Shown: positions 28,966-37,260 of the stretch, piece by piece | How positions within the stretch are numbered: the first letter of the stretch is position 1 | Layout: each line of letters opens with the position of its first letter | NCBI RefSeq assembly: GCF_004799685.1 | Contig: NZ_CP031311.1 | Coordinates: 1,922,001-1,986,000, forward strand | DNA from: Halobellus limi | GTDB lineage: Archaea; Halobacteriota; Halobacteria; Halobacteriales; Haloferacaceae | Length of the DNA stretch: 64,000 nucleotides | Direction of reading: 5' to 3' | Position numbers and translations under genes: made by a program | Notes under the pieces: generated by a model | What the model was told of the DNA's origin: nothing | Database searches by the model: none | What the model saw: only the letters and a program-made list of their open reading frames with translations

Positions 28966-30009
28966 TCACTCCGGCGGCTGGCGAAGGGCGGAGAACGCGT
29001 CGCCCGCGAGCCCCGGACCCGCGGGAACCCGTATGCGACCGCCCTCCACCGGAGCCGGGTCGGGGGCGAGGTCGTCCGCGAGCATCGCCCCCGTCGCGAG
29101 CCCGCAGGCGGGGACGTCCGGAAGCGCCGCGGCGACGTGCACCGCGCCGACCCGTGCGATCACGGCGTCGATCGTGGTCGTCACGACGACGTCGACGCCG
29201 CGCTCTGACGCCTGCCGCGCCACGTCGAGCGTCCGGATCGGACCGCCGAGAGCCATCGGTTTACAGACGAGGGCGTCCGCGGCGTCGGCCGCGAGGACCC
29301 GCGCCGGTCCGGCCGTCGCCAGCGACTCGTCGAGCGCGACGCCGACGCCGCGGCCCCGAAGGTCGGCGTGTCCCTCGACGTCGGCGGACGGAAGCGGCTG
29401 CTCGACGTACGAGAAGTCGAGTTCGGCGGCCACGTCGAGCATTCGCCTCGCCGTCTCGACGTCCCAGGCGCCGTTGGCGTCCGCGCGGAGGCCGACGTCG
29501 TCGCCGGCGGCCTCACGGACCGCTCGGAGTCGCGTCGCGTCGACGTCTGGGTCGCGCGCGCCGACCTTCACCTTCACCGTACTGAACCCCTCCTCGACGG
29601 CCTCGCGCGTCGCCCCGGCGGTCGCGTCGACGGAGCCGTCGCCGACGGTGGCGTTGACTGCCACGGTGTCGGCGGGTGTCTCGTCGGCGAGGAACGCCGC
29701 CAGCGACTCCCCTGCAGCGCGTGCTTCTGCCGTCGCGACGGCGAGTTCGGCCCCGTGCCGGGCGGCCGGACGACGAGGCCTCCCCGCCTCGCCAGTCTCG
29801 CTCGGAAGCGACTCGGGGCCCCGCATACCCGAAAGCGCGTCCTCACACTCCGCGTAGGACTCCGTCCAGCCGGGGAGCGGCGTCGCCTCGCCGAGTCCGA
29901 CCACGCCGTCGTGTTCGACTCGAACGAGAAAGCCCTCCCGTCGGCTGATGGGCCCGCTGGCGGTCGAGAGCGGCGACCGGAGATCGAGGGAGAACGGTTC
30001 GGTCTCCAT
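28966..30009 (-). CDS. menC: o-Succinylbenzoate synthase (enolase superfamily)
   Basis: A 347-residue enolase-superfamily enzyme. It has the KxK pair in VKVKVG, metal ligands in LRADANGAW, YVEQPLP and ALDESLA, and the second lysine in VCKPMALGG. It dehydrates SHCHC to o-succinylbenzoate in menaquinone synthesis. Its ATG shares one base with the menA stop (TAATG), so the two are coupled. No menE gene follows in this window. The high Arg/Ala content is typical of the host. Confidence 0.9.
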   Translation of the reverse strand: METEPFSLDLRSPLSTASGPISRREGFLVRVEHDGVVGLGEATPLPGWTESYAECEDALSGMRGPESLPSETGEAGRPRRPAARHGAELAVATAEARAAGESLAAFLADETPADTVAVNATVGDGSVDATAGATREAVEEGFSTVKVKVGARDPDVDATRLRAVREAAGDDVGLRADANGAWDVETARRMLDVAAELDFSYVEQPLPSADVEGHADLRGRGVGVALDESLATAGPARVLAADAADALVCKPMALGGPIRTLDVARQASERGVDVVVTTTIDAVIARVGAVHVAAALPDVPACGLATGAMLADDLAPDPAPVEGGRIRVPAGPGLAGDAFSALRQPPE

Positions 30010-30958
30010 TACAGCGGGAGCGCCGTGAACGAGAGGCCGACGGCGAACAGGACGGCGTAGGCCGCCAGGAGCCGTCCGGTCCGTTCCAGCGTCGGGTTGA
30101 GGATCCGACCGTCGGTCTCTCCCAGGATCGTTCGCGTGATGCTTGCGGCGTACGGGAGGGTGAGATACGGGAGCGCGATGGCCACCGTATACCCGGGACG
30201 GGCGAGGAACCACAGCGGCACTGCGTACGCCACGAGGAGCATCGCGAGGAACTCCGCGCGGGCGAATCCGTAGCCGAACCGAACCGCGAGCGTCCGCTTG
30301 CCGGTGGTGGCGTCCTCCTCCCTGTCGCGGACGTTGTTGACGACGAGAATGTCCGTCGACAGCGCCGCGATCGGCAGCGCCGCGACGAGGACCGCGAGCG
30401 GGAGCGTCTCGGGCGGGACCCCGAGGGGGAACGGCTCGGCGAGCACCGCCGCGGCCTGGACGTAGTACGTTCCCGCGACCGCGACGAGGCCGAAGAACAC
30501 GAAGACGAACAGGTCACCCAGGCCGTGGTAGCCGAGCGGGTACGGGCCGCCGGTGTAGGCGATGCCGGAGGCGACCGAGAGGAGTCCGACCACGAGGATC
30601 GGCGCGCCGCCGACGTAGACCAGGTAGGTGCCCAAGAGGATCGACGCGGCGAACGTGAGATACATCGCGCGCTTGACCGTCTCGGGGTCGATGAGCCCCC
30701 CGCCGTCACTCGGGTGAACCCCTCTCGTTCCTCGGTGTCGGCGCCCTTGACGTAATCGTAGTAGTCGTTGGCGAAGTTGGTCCCGATCTGGATGAGGCCG
30801 GCACCGACGAGCGCCGCCAGTGCCGGGAGGACTGCGAACACACCGTCGTGGACGGCGATCCCGGTCCCGACGACGACCGGCGAGGCCGCCGCCGGCAGCG
30901 TCTGTGGCCGGGCGGCCATCACCCACGCCTCGCGTTTCGTGACCTCCTGCGTGCTCAT
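30009..30958 (-). pseudogene. menA: 1,4-dihydroxy-2-naphthoate polyprenyltransferase, frameshifted
   Basis: Two frames together make a complete UbiA-family membrane prenyltransferase of about 316 residues. The first part (from 30958) has MSTQEVTKREAWVMAARPQT and the magnesium motif NDYYDYVKGAD. The second part has the other aspartate motif, VRDREED, and about seven helices. The frame breaks at six C on the plus strand (30696-30701), which is six G in the gene. A seventh would restore VTAGGLIDPETV. Everything else is intact. It attaches the isoprenoid tail to the naphthoate ring. menC follows with a one-base overlap. Confidence 0.93.
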
Positions 30959-30999
30959 TACTCTCCCCTCCGAACGGCGAGGGTGTCAAGCTTATCCTT

Positions 31000-31064
31000 C
31001 CACCTTTTTTCACGGAGGGGTCTGCAGGACCCCTCCGCGCAAAAACCGGGAGGAAAAAAGGCCG
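31000..31064. repeat. Left boundary hairpin / imperfect inverted repeat of the low-GC island
   Basis: Reading plus, CCACCTTTTTT is followed by a perfect hairpin (GGAGGGGTC, loop TGCAG, GACCCCTCC at 31014-31036), then GCGCAAAAA, and ends AAAAAAGGCCG. The same architecture appears inverted at 36262-36341. It lies just upstream of menA. Confidence 0.6.
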
Positions 31065-31254
31065 CCGACGTCGACGGTGAACCGCTCGCTTCGTCGCCAG
31101 CGTTCTGTGCTGGCTTCCAGCGAGACCGGAGGTCTCGCCCGGCTCGCGGATGCTCAGACAAGGAACGCCTAGGTCGTTCAAAACAGAACGATGAGATACT
31201 GTTACTCAGATCATCACAACTATTTTTCCCTCAGCGTGGGAGACTATACGTAAC

Positions 31255-31506
31255 GTGAATAAAAATAAAGAATTGGTTATTTACGAACGACAGGATGACA
31301 CTGAGTTTGAAGACGACTTATTCACGGCATTTGAGGTAGCCGGTGCAGACTTGGAGAACCAAGATGTACCGATGATGGAGTTCATTGACCCACTTGCGCT
31401 TAAGCAATTAAATTGGGATAATCCACAGTTAGAAGTCCGAACTGAAGTATGGGGATACCTCTTACGTATCACTCCCGACGATATTACGATCTACTCACGT
31501 GAATAA
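31255..31506 (+). CDS. HalOD1 output domain-like protein
   Basis: An 83-residue acidic protein starting at a GTG. The pattern LFTAFEVAGADLENQDVPMM followed by EFIDPLALKQL and a final short beta pair resembles the HalOD1 output domain found in haloarchaeal signalling proteins. That domain has a 'hydrophobic-helix, IDPDAL' core. The gene is AT-rich compared with the flanks, as are the other genes to 36.1 kb. It would act in the cytoplasm as a regulatory partner; no kinase lies nearby. Confidence 0.7.
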   Translation: MNKNKELVIYERQDDTEFEDDLFTAFEVAGADLENQDVPMMEFIDPLALKQLNWDNPQLEVRTEVWGYLLRITPDDITIYSRE

Positions 31507-31569
31507 ATTCGTTCAGTCCAGGACCTACACGTACCAATCTCCAGGAGGCTTCTGGTTGGTGTGAAATTC

Positions 31570-31815
31570 TCAGGGCGTCGATTCGACGCGCTCTCCTCGT
31601 ACTGTGACGTAAATGAGTATGCCGAGCAGTCCGGGAACCAAGCCTGCCAAGAACAGCAATGCGATACCTACTCCCCATTGCCACGCCCAGTCGCTCCCAC
31701 GAGCTTTCGCATCGCGGTAGACCCACCGACCGATTAGACCGAAGACGAGGGCCAGTATCAGGAAGATAATCATCAACTCGGGTCCACCGGGGACTTGTAA
31801 GGGAAGCGGGAACAC
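31570..31815 (-). CDS. Small membrane protein (two predicted helices)
   Basis: An 81-residue protein with the N-terminal PGGPEL motif seen before the first helix of several haloarchaeal membrane proteins. One helix follows (MIIFLILALVFGLIGRWVY), then a short basic/aromatic loop (RDAKARGSDWAWQW) and a second helix. The function is unknown. It is in the AT-richer island, downstream of and on the same strand as the sensor-domain protein. Confidence 0.7.
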   Translation of the reverse strand: MFPLPLQVPGGPELMIIFLILALVFGLIGRWVYRDAKARGSDWAWQWGVGIALLFLAGLVPGLLGILIYVTVRGERVESTP

Positions 31816-31956
31816 AGATAATGCAATTCTCAGAACCCGTATAGACTTTTCTCATACGGTCAACCCACACTTCTGTTTCAACAGCTGATTCAGCTACAGA
31901 GGTGTGAAAACAGTCCCTCGGGAAGAGTTCAATAACACCTTCGGGCCCACACAAAA

Positions 31957-32610
31957 TTACAAGAGTATCAGCGCGATTTTTCCGAGGAGACGGGCGGTAA
32001 CGTTGAACAGAGACATCGAAGTGATCAGTCCAATCATACCGATGGGGACAGCGATCACTGCTTCAGTCAACGTGTCGATCGTCCAGATGCCGAGTTCGAT
32101 CCCAGTACTGGGAACCGTGTAAATGAACGGTGCCAGCAGCAAGCCGGCAGACACACTCAGAGACGCGATGAGTAGACTAAACACCAAGATCCCGAGCGGG
32201 AGCTTCAACACTAAATAGACGATACCCTTCCACGTTGAGCGAGCTACCACCCGTACTCGTATCTGCGGCCATAGCGTCGTCTCGTCTGTAATTGCGTCTT
32301 CAGGTGGCCGGATATCGAGGTTCAGCAGCGCGTTTGTGAGTTCTCGCTCGAAGGCACTAAGATAGCGGCTCCCGAGAATGACGCCGATCAACAGCGGCAC
32401 TCCCACCAGAACGACTGTTAATCCAAGTCCGAGGACAGTCCCGACAGTTAACAGAACGAAGTATGCTATCCCGAGAGGAAACATTATCAGTAGGTACAGG
32501 AGATTTCGGTACGTCTGTGCTCGGCTGAGTGGCCTGAGCACGGTGGACATCAGCGAATCGTCCCGTTTGGGTCGGTCGTCGTGACTGCCCGATTCATTTC
32601 TGAACACCAA
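31957..32610 (-). CDS. Membrane protein with putative sensor domain
   Basis: A 217-residue protein with four hydrophobic segments in two pairs, separated by a 60-residue soluble region. The pattern (AQTYRNLLYLLIMFPLGIAY, then STWKGIVYLVLKLPLGILVF) matches the duplicated 'Putative sensor' domain that usually precedes histidine kinases. Here it stands alone, without a kinase. The start at 32610 overlaps the end of the CPBP protease gene by 17 bases; a second ATG at 32550 would remove the overlap. The overlap suggests a joint function with the protease. Confidence 0.75.
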   Translation of the reverse strand: MVFRNESGSHDDRPKRDDSLMSTVLRPLSRAQTYRNLLYLLIMFPLGIAYFVLLTVGTVLGLGLTVVLVGVPLLIGVILGSRYLSAFERELTNALLNLDIRPPEDAITDETTLWPQIRVRVVARSTWKGIVYLVLKLPLGILVFSLLIASLSVSAGLLLAPFIYTVPSTGIELGIWTIDTLTEAVIAVPIGMIGLITSMSLFNVTARLLGKIALILL

Positions 32611-33403
32611 TCTCGTCGATTCCCGTGCTTGTAGGCTGCCGTTTTGTGTTGCGTGTCGCCCGTCGATCTTGCCAGAGAAGCCATACTCCGATCGCTCCGG
32701 CGAGCAGTACGAACCCGATTGAAATCAGTTCGTAGACCATCGACGTCGTCGCTGCGAGTGATCCGGTCACATCAACTGCGAAGTGCCAGACGATGAGCGG
32801 CCAGAGGCTCTCTAGCCGGAGTGCAATCGCACCGAGACCGATACCTAACGGGATGATGAGCAGCATCTGTGGGAGCCACTCGGCCAGCGAATTCCCGAGG
32901 ATGACCTGTGAGATGTGGGCTAGACCAAACATCGTGGCCGGAAGCACGACAGCCAGCAGGCGGCTGCGAGGCTCAAGTGCACGGAGCAACACACCACGAT
33001 AGATGAGTTCTTCAGAGATGGCCGCTCCGAGTGCCACACCCACGATGATCACGAAGAGTGCCGCCCACGGCGGAAGGGTTTGGCCCTCAATGAGCGAGAT
33101 CTCGGGGATAGCGAGGCCGAATATGACTGGGACAAAGACGACGACCGCGAAGGGGAGCAGATAGACAATCGCACGCCGATTGACTGGTGCCGTGAGCCGA
33201 ATTTTTCCCCACCACCCGAGCCAGGTGACGAGCGCGATACTAACCGCCACGATGAGCCAATTGAGCACGAGCCCGATTCCGTGAAGCGTCAACTGGGGCA
33301 CGACAGCTTCGAGGATAGTTCGTGTGAGTAGTGTCAGGACAACAAGTGCGGCTGTGAACCCGAGTGTAAATCCGACTGGGTGACGTTCGACAATCGATAC
33401 CAT
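32594..33403 (-). CDS. CPBP family intramembrane metalloprotease
   Basis: A 269-residue membrane protein with about eight helices and the complete CPBP (Abi/CAAX) catalytic set: EE at 131-132 with R136 (EELIYRG), H163 in FGLAHIS, and H207 with D211 in VWHFAVD. Such proteases cleave prenylated or other membrane peptides, and some give immunity to bacteriocins. A minus-strand TATA-like ATTATATATAG lies at 33424-33434. It heads a short operon with the sensor-domain gene. Confidence 0.9.
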   Translation of the reverse strand: MVSIVERHPVGFTLGFTAALVVLTLLTRTILEAVVPQLTLHGIGLVLNWLIVAVSIALVTWLGWWGKIRLTAPVNRRAIVYLLPFAVVVFVPVIFGLAIPEISLIEGQTLPPWAALFVIIVGVALGAAISEELIYRGVLLRALEPRSRLLAVVLPATMFGLAHISQVILGNSLAEWLPQMLLIIPLGIGLGAIALRLESLWPLIVWHFAVDVTGSLAATTSMVYELISIGFVLLAGAIGVWLLWQDRRATRNTKRQPTSTGIDEIGVQK

Positions 33404-33423
33404 ACAATATGTACGTCAAACTA

Positions 33424-33434
33424 CTATATATAAT
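33424..33434 (-). promoter_or_regulatory. TATA box for the CPBP operon
   Basis: Minus-strand ATTATATATAG ends 20 bases before the ATG at 33403, giving a leaderless or near-leaderless transcript. Confidence 0.55.
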
Positions 33435-33532
33435 CGTATTGACAAACGGACACTGACAACCTATATCAAAATCCTCGTGCTGGATATCAGAGAAGACGTA
33501 GATCGTTCGATAAAGGGCCACTATTTTGCAAT

Positions 33533-34135
33533 CTATTCAACCACGGTGAAATCGGTGTCGTCGGTCACCAACAGTTGATTTTCGTTTTTCTTTACATATC
33601 TGTGATCTTTTACTCCTCTGAATCGAATCGTCTCCCCAACGTCGAAATGAGGATGTGAAACCCCATCCGAGACGACCAGCGGGACTCGTTTGGATGAGCC
33701 TTCTTCGCGGACGATAGCCTTTAGATCAGGTGTATTGGAGGTGTTTTTTGCTACGAATTCGACCTCACTGATCGTGGCTTCGACTGTGACAAACTCTTCA
33801 GAGCCACGTAATTCAGTAAGATTCCGTTCCGGATAATCCTTAGAAACGCTCGTGGTTGAGGTCTCATATTGTTCGTTTGGCTCTTGGCTTGATGATACAA
33901 TATCTGGGTCTTTGAGTTCTACCGTCAGATAATTTGTTTCGCTGTCCGTTCCGATACGAAATGACTGAACCTCGACCGTGATCGTTGCCCCGCCATCTGT
34001 TGGGGTCGGTTCATCTCCGGGGAACAGACAAACAGTCTTAGAATCACCAGCTGGTTCGGTTACTACCCACTGACCGCCAGACCTTCGGATCTGAATTTCT
34101 CCCGTTCCACCAGACCTGTACCACACTTCAGTCAT
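33533..34135 (-). CDS. Hypothetical protein with a probable C-terminal OB fold
   Basis: A 200-residue acidic protein of unknown function. The C-terminal 85 residues have the strand pattern of an OB fold: FVTVEATISEVEFV, then DLKAIVREE, RVPLVVSDG, FDVGETIRFRGVKDH and QLLVTDDTDFTV. This resembles nucleic-acid-binding OB domains of RPA-like proteins. The N-terminal half is less clear, with TEVWYRSGGTGEIQIRRSGG at the start and an acidic, Ser/Thr-rich middle. No zinc cysteines are present. It may bind DNA or RNA, or simply be an OB-containing adaptor. Confidence 0.65.
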   Translation of the reverse strand: MTEVWYRSGGTGEIQIRRSGGQWVVTEPAGDSKTVCLFPGDEPTPTDGGATITVEVQSFRIGTDSETNYLTVELKDPDIVSSSQEPNEQYETSTTSVSKDYPERNLTELRGSEEFVTVEATISEVEFVAKNTSNTPDLKAIVREEGSSKRVPLVVSDGVSHPHFDVGETIRFRGVKDHRYVKKNENQLLVTDDTDFTVVE

Positions 34136-34505
34136 ACACTCTCTTCATCAGGTATATGTTTCAAGCTTTGTCCGTTTAGCTACTATTAGGACAGCAAACA
34201 TATCATCAGACTCTATTTAGGAAATATACTATCGGATCATACGTTAGAGAGTGGACTGGGCACTCTACGCAATACGCATCGTCTATCAGACGGCTAGTTC
34301 AGAGAGAAGGATATCGAATTAATAGGATTTCAACAGCGCCGGCTGTCCCTGTGTTGGGCACACCAAGATTCTGAAACAAGCGATTTACCTGTACGGTTCA
34401 AGCGAGTGGAGCGGCACATACGAGTGAGATCCCCTACTCCGTTATAAATACATTACCGGATTAAGCTAAATCTCGATGCTATTCTGGGCCCGTTATACTA
34501 ATTGT
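34136..34505. other. Intergenic region with one copy of a 27-base dispersed repeat
   Basis: I see no convincing gene in these 370 AT-rich bases. They contain the first copy of the repeat at 34275-34301 (see the second at 36141). A TATA-like GTTATACTAATTG just before 34506 would serve the small frame there. Confidence 0.5.
34275..34301. repeat. Dispersed 27-base repeat, copy 1
   Basis: CGCATCGTCTATCAGACGGC followed by TAGTTCA recurs at 36141-36167 with one mismatch. It contains the small palindrome CGTCT-ATC-AGACG. Confidence 0.85.
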
Positions 34506-34643
34506 ATGGCACACAAAGGCCGCAGTGGCGAGACGAGCACAGACACTGAATCAAAATTCTATCTCCCTGTGGGGATCTCGCCATCTTCCAAAGAGAGCTG
34601 GATCGACCGCATCTGGACGGTCCTGTTCAATCACCGCGTCTGA
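34506..34643 (+). CDS. Possible 45-residue small protein
   Basis: The frame begins MAHKGRSGETSTDTE and ends WIDRIWTVLFNHRV. It has a polar, Ser/Thr-rich front half and a Trp-containing amphipathic C-terminal segment. A TATA-like GTTATACT stands about 12-20 bases upstream. I know of no family. It could be a small regulatory or membrane-associated protein, or chance. Confidence 0.35.
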   Translation: MAHKGRSGETSTDTESKFYLPVGISPSSKESWIDRIWTVLFNHRV

Positions 34644-34851
34644 GAAATCAGAATCGCAGCAAGTGGTGACGATGAAAGAGAACTAGTCAACTAGTTTTTC
34701 CAAGGACATCGTTATCGACCACGTTCGAGGACCATCATACGAGGACTTCTAACATTTCTTTGCGAACATCACAAGATGAGTTTCAACTAAATATCTGGGA
34801 AACTAACATAGAGTGGGAATACGTCTTGGAAATCACTCGTGTAGAAGACTA

Positions 34852-35505
34852 ATGAGCGATATTAAAGCCGTCATCCGAGTCGAGCACCCTGATATTGTGC
34901 TCACGGGCACTGTCAGTCACGACCAAAGTGCGACGGTGATGCCTGTGTCAGAAGCAGGTACTGACCCCGACACGGGGAGGTTTCTATACCACGTTGAATC
35001 ATCGGACTTCTGTCGATTCGAAGATGGATTACGAAGTGACCACACGATAGCAGAGTTCAAACGAGTCATCGAAACCACCGCTGAGAGGGCAATCTACAGC
35101 TTTGAGTACACTGACGAAGCAAAGACGTTCTCGCCGGTGATCTCGAAAGCGGACGGTGTAGCGCTTGAGATGGAAAACGAGAGCAACGCGTGGCTCATCT
35201 CGCTGTGGATGCCCGATCGAGACAGACTGGCCGACGTTTGGGACTACGCGCAAGCCAACAGTATCGACATCGATCTACGGCGGGTAAACGAGTATGCGAG
35301 TCTCGGGAAGACAACTGCTGGATTGACTGAAACGCAACGCGAGGCGTTACTCGTCGCTTTCGAGGCAGGATATTTCAAGGATCCACGCGAGGTAACACTC
35401 AGTGAGGTTGCGGACACGCTCGACATTTCGAAGCCAGCCGCCAGTGGTCTTCTTCGACGTGGAATCCAGCGATTAATCATCTCCAGCCTCGTCGAGGACA
35501 GTTGA
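34852..35505 (+). CDS. Bat-type helix-turn-helix transcriptional regulator
   Basis: A 217-residue regulator of the bacterio-opsin activator type. The N-terminal sensor-like half is followed by a C-terminal HTH_10 domain of about 55 residues, from LTETQREALLVAFEAGYFKD through LSEVADTLDISKPAASGLLR to the end. The ATG at 34852 is taken. A leaderless GTG at 34813, about 20 bases after a TATA-like AACTAAATATC, is a credible alternative that adds 13 residues. It is the only DNA-binding regulator in the low-GC island and may control it. Confidence 0.88.
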   Translation: MSDIKAVIRVEHPDIVLTGTVSHDQSATVMPVSEAGTDPDTGRFLYHVESSDFCRFEDGLRSDHTIAEFKRVIETTAERAIYSFEYTDEAKTFSPVISKADGVALEMENESNAWLISLWMPDRDRLADVWDYAQANSIDIDLRRVNEYASLGKTTAGLTETQREALLVAFEAGYFKDPREVTLSEVADTLDISKPAASGLLRRGIQRLIISSLVEDS

Positions 35506-35516
35506 ACAATTACAGC

Positions 35517-35631
35517 CAGCTTTTTGTTGACTCGGGTGCGACTCCGGCGCACCGCTCTCCACGGGCGACCCGTGAGTCGCCCGTGGGGAAGCGAGACGGC
35601 TCTGCCGTCTCGCCCTCGTTGCAAAAAGCTG
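35517..35631. repeat. Structured 115-base element with terminal inverted repeats
   Basis: The ends are perfect 10-base inverted repeats, CAGCTTTTTG at 35517-35526 and CAAAAAGCTG at 35622-35631. Inside are two perfect hairpins: CCACGGGCGAC/GTCGCCCGTGG (11-base arms, 6-base loop) and GCGAGACGGC/GCCGTCTCGC (10-base arms, TCT loop). The element is GC-rich inside an AT-rich island and carries no ORF. A MITE, a solo end of an IS200/605-type element or a structured RNA are all possible. Confidence 0.6.
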
Positions 35632-35740
35632 TCTTGCTGAGCGAAGCAGGGATTACATACACCGGATAGTTCGGATAGGTGTAACTCGAAGGTCCGGAGT
35701 TTGCACCCACTATTTACGCGTCCCCCGTGATTTTTGAACT

Positions 35741-36121
35741 ATGGTCCCTTCCGAGAGCATAGACGACGACCAATATTTCGGTGGGCGAAGAGGTGTCGTA
35801 GTTCTCGCTGTTGCGTACGTGGCAGTTGGACTCGGGTTGTTCTACAGTCTCGCTACGCAGTCGATAGACCTTTTCAGCGGCGTTCTTGTCGCTATCATCG
35901 TTTTAGTGGGGCTATCACTGTATATCCTCTACAGACGGGAGGGATTAGTGACAGCCGAGAATAAACTCATTGCCATCTTCGTTCTGGTCGCAACGGGGCT
36001 TTTGTTTGGACTCCTTGAGTTCACCACCCTACCGTCAGAGATTGTCTATGGAATAGTATTTGGGGTCGGTGTCGTTGTTCCCGGGTTACTCCTACAGTAT
36101 ACTGATTACGGGAGTGACTGA
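35741..36121 (+). CDS. Four-helix membrane protein of unknown function
   Basis: A 126-residue protein with four hydrophobic helices at roughly 18-38, 42-62, 73-92 and 98-117, a short acidic N-terminus and a charged loop (YRREGLVTAENK) between helices two and three. It has no catalytic motif that I recognise. It belongs to the AT-richer island by base composition. Confidence 0.72.
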   Translation: MVPSESIDDDQYFGGRRGVVVLAVAYVAVGLGLFYSLATQSIDLFSGVLVAIIVLVGLSLYILYRREGLVTAENKLIAIFVLVATGLLFGLLEFTTLPSEIVYGIVFGVGVVVPGLLLQYTDYGSD

Positions 36122-36140
36122 TTGGTTCGATTGTTCTATT

Positions 36141-36167
36141 CGCATCGTCTATCAGACGGCTAATTCA
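36141..36167. repeat. Dispersed 27-base repeat, copy 2
   Basis: Matches 34275-34301 with one mismatch. Here the CGTCTATC core also finds a downstream complement GATAGACG at about 36173-36180. Confidence 0.85.
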
Positions 36168-36261
36168 TCGACGATAGACGTGAAATCAATGGTCCCGAAC
36201 ATCCGTCCCACGCTCAGATTCTAGCATATTCCACCGCGATCGAGGCCGAAGGCCGAGCGAG

Positions 36262-36341
36262 CGGCCTTTTTTGGTCCAGATTTTTTGCGGGGGTTCGAGG
36301 CCGCGCGCAGCGCGGCCGAGGACCCCCGATAAAAAAGGTGG
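36262..36341. repeat. Right boundary hairpin / imperfect inverted repeat of the low-GC island
   Basis: Read on the minus strand this is CCACCTTTTTT, a long hairpin (8-base inner arms GCGCGGCC/GGCCGCGC plus 7-base outer arms CGGGGGT/ACCCCCG), CAAAAAA and finally AAAAAAGGCCG. The order and flanking motifs match the left element at 31000-31064. It starts directly after the menB stop and could also end menB transcription. Confidence 0.6.
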
Positions 36342-36342
36342 G

Positions 36343-37260
36343 TTAGTAGTGCCAGGGGTACCCCGAGAAGTCGGGGTCGCGGCCTTCGAGGAACGCGTCC
36401 CGTCCCTCCTGGGCCTCCTCGGTCATATACGCCAGGCGCGTCGCTTCTCCGGAGAACACCTGCTGGCCGACGAGGCCGTCGTCGGTCAGGTTGAACGCGT
36501 ACTTGAGCATTCGTATCGCGGTGGGCGATTTATCGGTCATCTCGTCGGCCCATTCCAGGGCGATGTCCTCCAGTTCCTCGTGGGGAATCGCCTCGTTCGC
36601 CATCCCCATCTCGACGGCCTCCTCAGCGGAGTAGGTCTTCCCGCGGAAGAACACCTCTCGGGCCTTCTTCTGGCCGATCTGCTTCGCGAGATAGGCCGAG
36701 CCGAACCCGCCGTCGAACGACGCGACGTCGGGGTCCGTCTGAAGGAACTTGGCGTGATCCTCGGAGGCGAGCGTCAGGTCGCAGACGACGTGCAGCGAGT
36801 GGCCACCACCCACCGCCCAGCCGGGAACGACGGCGACGACCGGTTTCGGCATAAATCGGATGAGGCGCTGCACCTCCAGGATGTGGAGCCGACCGGCCTT
36901 CGCCTCGCGGACGAGCGGGTCGTCTCCCTCGTCGGCCTCGTCGTCGTCGCGGTACTCGTAGCCCGACTCGCCGCGGACCGACTGATCGCCGCCGGCGCAG
37001 AAGGCCCAGCCGCCGTCCTTCGGCGACGGGCCGTTGCCCGTCAGGAGGACGCAGCCGACGTCTGCTCGCTTGCGGGCGTCGTCGAGCGCCGCGTAGAGTT
37101 CGTCGACGGTGCCCGGGCGGAACGCGTTGCGCTTCTCGGGCCTGTCGAAGGCGATCCGAACCGCCGGCACGTCGATCCCCCGGTGGTACGTGACGTCGTC
37201 GAAGGCGTCCGCGCCGTCGACCTGCTCCCAGCGCGCGCCGTCGAAGATCTCTGAAACCAT
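36343..37260 (-). CDS. menB: 1,4-dihydroxy-2-naphthoyl-CoA synthase
   Basis: A 305-residue crotonase-superfamily enzyme that closes the naphthoate ring in menaquinone synthesis. Oxyanion-hole segments AFCAGGDQS and PGWAVGGGHSLHVVCDLTLAS are present. MenB-specific features include the SFDGGFGSAYLA loop and the C-terminal DPDFSGYPWHY. The ATG at 37260 gives the normal N-terminus. Downstream, the expected neighbour menA is 5.4 kb away, beyond the low-GC island. Confidence 0.96.
   Translation of the reverse strand: MVSEIFDGARWEQVDGADAFDDVTYHRGIDVPAVRIAFDRPEKRNAFRPGTVDELYAALDDARKRADVGCVLLTGNGPSPKDGGWAFCAGGDQSVRGESGYEYRDDDEADEGDDPLVREAKAGRLHILEVQRLIRFMPKPVVAVVPGWAVGGGHSLHVVCDLTLASEDHAKFLQTDPDVASFDGGFGSAYLAKQIGQKKAREVFFRGKTYSAEEAVEMGMANEAIPHEELEDIALEWADEMTDKSPTAIRMLKYAFNLTDDGLVGQQVFSGEATRLAYMTEEAQEGRDAFLEGRDPDFSGYPWHY

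Follow-up and report, generated by a model that had tools for sequence, protein, structure and literature searches.

A dispersed haloarchaeal repeat at gene and tRNA ends, with T tracts on both strands, as a candidate two-way terminator

We examined a 64,000-nt stretch of the Halobellus limi genome (hereafter the window), in which a plus-strand gene for an HTH_10 regulator (Pfam HTH_10, 4.6e-16) spans positions 34813-35505 as its longest open reading frame, with a start at 34852 according to a codon-usage gene caller. Its stop codon at 35503-35505 is followed, 12 nt downstream, by a structured element at 35517-35631. The 10-base ends of this element, CAGCTTTTTG (35517-35526) and CAAAAAGCTG (35622-35631), are exact reverse complements of one another, in agreement with the original prediction. 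The left end contains a run of five T residues (T5, 35521-35525) that begins 16 nt past the HTH_10 stop, and the complement of the right end gives a T5 tract for minus-strand transcripts. Between the ends lie the two perfect hairpins that had been described, exactly as claimed: hairpin B (35559-35586, with 11-bp arms at 35559-35569 and 35576-35586) and hairpin C (35591-35613, with 10-bp arms at 35591-35600 and 35604-35613), all features being given on the plus strand. A third, hairpin A (35535-35553, with 6-bp arms at 35535-35540 and 35548-35553), is also present and was absent from the earlier description.

Within the AT-rich island, the element has a GC content of 66%, against 51% in the preceding kilobase. 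A 151-nt region containing it folds with a z-score of -6.05, and none of 200 shuffled sequences was equally stable. The statement that it has no open reading frame was slightly too strong, as two mechanical minus-strand frames (126 and 66 aa) cross it, neither of which was picked by the codon-usage gene caller. A search of window positions 34000-37000 against Rfam gave no family match, and one chance-level match elsewhere, and we rejected a known RNA family accordingly. Because the window contains 24 perfect 10-nt inverted pairs with a start-to-start spacing of 90-125 nt, an end repeat of this kind is not rare by itself, and it is recurrence that shows the non-chance nature of the element.

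Second copies, on which the original prediction hinged, were found both in the H. limi genome and in those of its relatives. With the 151-nt region as query, the former (G000; G-numbers denote genomes and L-numbers loci or copies) gave 20 matches at an E-value of 1 or less, five of them near full length (L001-L005, 86-100% identity) and two shorter and restricted to the left third (L006, L007). At a cutoff of 0.001, 11 of 30 genomes have matches, namely H. limi itself and 10 of the 29 others. The element is an enlarged member of a dispersed repeat family, which we here name E.

The basic E unit measures ~65 nt and consists of CCCACCTTTTT, a GC-rich hairpin and GCAAAAANCTGGACCAAAAA. Short copies read CCACCTTTTTGC, hairpin A, GTTGCAAAAAGCTGGACCAAAAA, whereas long copies have an added 57-nt block between two CTC triplets. 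In the window element, this BC block (hairpins B and C) occupies 35558-35614, with the triplets at 35555-35557 and 35615-35617, and hairpin A is the hairpin of the short form. At the L003 locus, E has the long form in H. limi and the short form in G002, G008 and G011 (L022, L037 and L021) between matching flanks, indicating that the BC block was gained or lost there. A second hairpin backbone (L017, L027) carries the block at the same relative position, and hairpin B differs between copies in the orientation of its loop, which is inverted in L001 and L002 relative to L003 and L004. In L007 (near 980-1075), L034 and L039, E takes a T4 form (ACCTTTTGC..GGCAAAAGCTGGAYCAAAA) that contains two or three hairpins, hairpin C among them.

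In an alignment of 38 short copies, the T5 and A5 runs are invariant and the hairpin is variable. From this alignment we built a covariance model, R1, which matches the window element at 35517-35631 with only 15.1 bits (E-value 0.49), a low score that arises because this element has the beginning of a different hairpin module where ordinary E copies have their GGACCAAAAA tail. Comparison with L002-L007 led us to re-delimit the whole element, on the plus strand, to 35512-35650, with outer limits set by eye; it thus comprises hairpins A, B and C and a remnant of the tail module (TCTTGCTGAGCG..., 35632-35650, likewise by eye). The tail module is longer in L004, L005, L027 and L262.

Two further E copies lie in the window. 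An ordinary copy on the minus strand (36268-36343; 48.3 bits, E-value 2.1e-9) is found at the stop codon of menB, a minus-strand gene ending at 36343, and a plus-strand copy (30998-31058; 36.8 bits, E-value 1.7e-6) lies 40 nt upstream of where menA starts (30958, minus strand), on the left edge of the AT-rich island. E copies therefore border both sides of the island between menB and menA (30998-36343), as if marking a place where foreign DNA had entered; in several relatives menB and menA are close neighbours. The menA frame itself (30009-30958, minus strand) changes ~90 codons in when compared with menA of G004, reflecting either a frameshift or a sequencing error.

The family extends well beyond Halobellus. 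The pattern GCAAAAANNTGGACCAAAAA occurs 10 times in the H. limi genome when up to two mismatches are allowed and, with up to one allowed, in 19 of 45 genomes and 11 of 28 genera; the reversed pattern occurs in neither search. An exact core was found in at least 120 stretches from named genomes; among the 80 listed, 76 bear haloarchaeal names and four are metagenome bins labelled only Euryarchaeota. Viral contigs searched for the same core returned no stretch, and we discarded viral carriage of E. Model R1 finds E in at least 43 of 60 genomes and at least 32 of 42 genera, with at least 31 copies in H. limi and at least 58 in G021, the genome richest in E; these are lower bounds, as the best 88 candidates per genome were scored. 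Among 148 genomes drawn from the phylum, R1 matches 18 of the 24 within the order, at up to 79 bits, and 11 of the 124 outside it, where the matches listed do not exceed 37.5 bits and have short spans.

Presence of E also follows local base composition. Among 30 genomes with a menB locus, E is absent from all seven with a locus GC of 0.603 or less and present in 22 of the 23 at 0.626 or more, a relation that is uncorrected for relatedness and in which the first look of the R1 model may itself depend on composition. Five members of the window's genus (G001, G009, G010, G012 and G016; loci L275, L267, L265, L266 and L276) have a locus GC of 0.47-0.52, many matches to Y1 (IS200-type) transposases and no E, unlike the rest of the genus.

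We compared E at orthologous places. After etfA, TTTTTGGTCCAG-TTTT lies within ~30 nt of the stop codon in 11 of 12 genomes of Haloferax, Halogeometricum and Haloprofundus, in a repeat unit that is complete, doubled (L242) or half-decayed. For menB, 36 genomes matched, 30 loci were fetched and 29 were readable, one falling short of the gene end; by eye, E is at the stop codon in 12 of the 29, three of these copies being decayed and the set showing several different hairpins. The remaining menB loci have no E, and in seven of them menA (identified by eye) lies within ~200 nt. A third locus has E at one position, next to a common downstream region, in G000, G002, G003 and G006, in subtypes that differ between G000 and the other three; G004, G005, G008 and G011 have no E there, and G007, G013, G014 and G015 were seen in BLAST tables only. 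For the HTH_10 gene, we compared 13 loci from relatives, among them those of G002 and G003 (91% and 90% protein identity), and in none does E directly follow the stop codon. The relatives' flank differs as a whole and provides no clean empty site, and a recent clean insertion at this position was rejected for that reason. Positions of E are thus in part shared and in part changing, and where the position is fixed the hairpin is swapped for another.

For a wider view of where E sits, we used 105 copies with readable flanks from the pattern-search loci, leaving out those in which no T run could be recognised or whose flanks were short or repeated. Thirty-eight of them start 0-14 nt past the stop of a same-strand open reading frame of at least 60 codons, and nine lie just after a same-strand tRNA gene. 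Another 40 are found between direct repeats, mostly of gene-end sequence, and three are antisense near a stop codon, with the remaining 15 in none of the gene-end classes. By eye, one exception to the gene-end rule is L154 (690-900), where E has a truncated copy of a gene start on one side and a complete one on the other. In a 464-kb sample (20 stretches and the window), most gene ends lack the E frame, which makes E a distinct family; on the same grounds, we ruled out that it is a general rule of gene ends.

The direct repeats measure ~25-130 bp. Only 2 of 105 mismatched pairings of flanks reach the same score, and another count gave 40 of 105 against 8 of 315. At 33 of the 40 loci with an alignable repeat, a long antisense open reading frame has its 3′ end inside the repeat; the other seven, L154 among them, for which no stop codon or no long frame was found, were left out of this set. 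In the 16 of 40 cases written out, the usual order along the gene is the complete gene, its stop, a spacer that often contains another hairpin, the antisense E, a duplicate of the 3′ end of the gene, stop included, and the ordinary downstream region. The truncated copy lies on the side of CCACC, and its end is in most cases 7-8 nt short of CCTTTTT. We take the genes at repeat loci to include etfA, malic enzyme, a thiolase and a short-chain dehydrogenase, naming them from their C-terminal sequences. Units can also occur in tandem, with n copies of E and n+1 gene ends (e.g. L168). Loci with two or more units of gene 3′ end, spacer and E in a row (L148, L168, L179, L181, L242) come from Haloferax, Halogeometricum and a metagenome bin, and are possibly length-variable.

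Such an arrangement could arise if E were a non-autonomous mobile element, either a MITE or a small mobile repeat, whose insertion close to a gene end copies part of that gene, with selection leaving the element in that position. The conserved inverted ends, the dozens of dispersed copies and the patchy presence at orthologous places agree with this explanation, as do the excess of direct repeats over control pairings and the tandem units. A repeat length that varies over ~100 bp is awkward for it, however, and at our threshold direct repeats are lacking around copies directly behind a stop codon or tRNA, L138 being borderline. Nor did we find a clean empty site together with a target duplication of constant length. 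Across the 33 loci, mismatches between full and truncated gene ends number 12 of 445, 10 of 455 and 61 of 456 at codon positions 1, 2 and 3, a third-position bias consistent with a foreign allele having been imported and given rise to the duplication. At etfA loci, truncated ends mostly keep the codon choices of their own species; that they follow that species' full copy fits recombination between repeats as well. Taken together, we regard such a mobile element as possible and rather unlikely.

The search for a mobilizing enzyme bears on the same question. Twenty neighbouring proteins of six other E copies were compared with Pfam, revealing no transposase family and no tnpB. The earlier suggestion of a MITE was right in that the element is repeated, palindromic and MITE-shaped with defined ends, the terminal inverted pairs CCA..TTTTT and AAAAA..TGG being kept in all 38 aligned copies. 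It did not hold for the target site, as the repeats around 40 of the 105 copies are no short, constant-length target-site duplication and the other copies show none at our threshold; no partner transposase was found among the neighbouring proteins. A classic MITE is therefore doubtful. Retroposition of a SINE-like kind was rejected, since a reverse transcriptase (RVT_1) was found in 1 of 60 genomes and that genome was not H. limi.

The original prediction had also proposed the end hairpins, or the guide RNA, of an IS200/605-type element since lost. A palindromic build is in keeping with a remnant or right end of a TnpA/TnpB element, or with its guide RNA, and haloarchaeal PATEs derive from IS605 ends (PMC3119063). 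Against such an origin, there are no Y1 matches in H. limi or in G021, the five congeners richest in Y1 (8-13 matches) have no E, and the counts of E and Y1 over 30 genomes are negatively correlated (Spearman -0.67, relatedness not corrected). With no transposase among the 20 neighbours and no Rfam match, we abandoned this explanation, which we consider very improbable. We infer that the reading that remains for the spread of E is dispersal by host recombination, which leaves unaccounted for, as does termination, the fixed geometry of the duplicated gene ends, with the truncated copy always on the CCACC side.

What E does at gene ends is suggested by its invariant parts. E has a T5 tract on both strands around a variable GC-rich hairpin, within a conserved outer frame, and ordinary copies have two T5 tracts on the antisense strand (TTTTTGGTCCAGNTTTTTGC). 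Tracts of this kind are scarce behind genes: in the 464-kb sample, a T5 run lies within 60 nt of 12 of the 261 stop codons (by our gene calls) that have 60 nt of non-coding DNA behind them. With a reporter in Haloferax volcanii, 95% of transcripts were ended by a T5C tract and 59% by one tested hairpin (PMC7237163), and in a methanogen aCPSF1 binds terminator U-tracts (PMC8716108). The position at gene ends together with T5 on both strands argues for a terminator rather than a classic MITE, and the rarity of T5 behind genes, its supply by E on both strands and the absence of E at low GC argue for a terminator or insulator. The pairing of most inner segments, the different E subtypes at one orthologous spot after menB and at the third locus, and the retention of TTTTTGGTCCAG-TTTT after etfA speak for this reading as well. 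From these sequence patterns, we propose that E copies probably serve as two-way U-tract terminators or insulators between the transcription units of GC-rich haloarchaea, spread and homogenised by recombination.

If so, RNA polymerase leaving the HTH_10 gene would stop at the T5 that starts 16 nt past its stop codon, probably aided by the cleavage factor aCPSF1, and the T5 of the opposite strand, or the two of ordinary copies, would stop transcription arriving from the other side. Hairpins might protect the RNA end or merely reflect the two-way symmetry. Copies would be spread and homogenised through host recombination, by ectopic gene conversion and by tandem duplication carrying gene ends along, and GC-rich genomes, in which T tracts are scarce, would keep such ready-made terminators.

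Several observations do not follow from this proposal. On either strand the U tract precedes the hairpin, unlike in a bacterial intrinsic terminator, leaving the hairpin without a settled role. Inner segments do fold, 97 of 103 distinct ones forming at least seven pairs, with a mean of -17.8 kcal/mol against -12.7 kcal/mol for shuffles, but only 25 of the 103 beat all 100 shuffles. A T5 alone would suffice for termination, which does not explain why CCACC and, between the A5 runs, CTGGACC are conserved; these sequences suggest a sequence-reading factor or mobility. The 15 copies outside the gene-end classes and the duplicated gene ends are likewise not accounted for by termination.

The same folding could instead belong to a small RNA or a 3′-UTR stability element, in which a U5-A5 stem with its hairpin forms a stable RNA end. 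U5 and A5 can pair around the hairpin in 38 of 38 aligned copies, and the window copy folds strongly. These pairs and the CCA-UGG pairs hardly vary, though, and so show no covariation for RNA pairing: RNAalifold gave eight pairs on the 38 copies, none with two-sided changes. E also occurs in both orientations relative to genes. We judge an RNA element of this kind improbable.

A bolder form of the terminator proposal would make E a portable terminator throughout the haloarchaea, planting itself at gene and tRNA ends and providing two-way termination for GC-rich genomes. It would often carry or create a duplicate gene end so that the gene stays intact, with neither its own transposase nor its own reverse transcriptase, and might rely on a dedicated factor reading CTGGACC and CCACC. 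We put this forward tentatively, as an idea with less than even chances. Were E a terminator, many haloarchaeal gene ends would carry one recognisable and exchangeable stop module, giving a simple rule for the annotation of 3′ ends and ready-made two-way terminators as tools for the genetics of haloarchaea. How U-tract termination is maintained in GC-rich archaea could then be tested directly. Gene-end duplication around E, in several genera, is an unexplained process of genome change that can be studied in culturable species such as Haloferax.

Our literature search found no description of the E repeat, with subscription papers mostly beyond its reach, so that an earlier description may exist; a recent survey of bacterial and archaeal REPs (PMC12306157) has a main text in which no word starts with "halo". 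T-stretch terminators, REP/BIME sequences, MITEs and small mobile repeats (SMRs) each have single features in common with E. The constant target duplication of MITEs, the Y1 transposase and neighbouring tnpB of IS200/605 derivatives and the Y1-type partner of REPINs were looked for and not found. Bacterial REPs and BIMEs are also short extragenic palindromes of many copies with mosaic combinations of hairpins, and E is similarly found with hairpin A alone, with A, B and C, and with a tail module. In contrast to these, E has a conserved T5/A5 frame, haloarchaea-wide spread and duplicated gene ends, and neither the H. limi genome nor the most E-rich one has a Y1 (RAYT-like) transposase, the partner expected of a REPIN. 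The MITEs, PATEs and SMRs of Haloquadratum walsbyi (PMC3119063) are likewise short, non-coding and dispersed, with inverted ends in the MITEs and SMRs. SMRs measure ~80-110 bp and their mobilisation is described there as unexplained; compared by description, SMR-A targets palindromes of other mobile elements, whereas E is at gene ends. With the T-stretch terminators of Haloferax volcanii, E shares a sense-strand T tract just past the gene end, at 16 nt for the HTH_10 gene and behind the 38 stops and nine tRNAs among the 105 copies, and some of those terminators also have hairpins nearby. The sections of PMC7237163 cited here describe no repeat family, whereas E is a repeated, conserved cassette that has T5 on both strands within a fixed frame.
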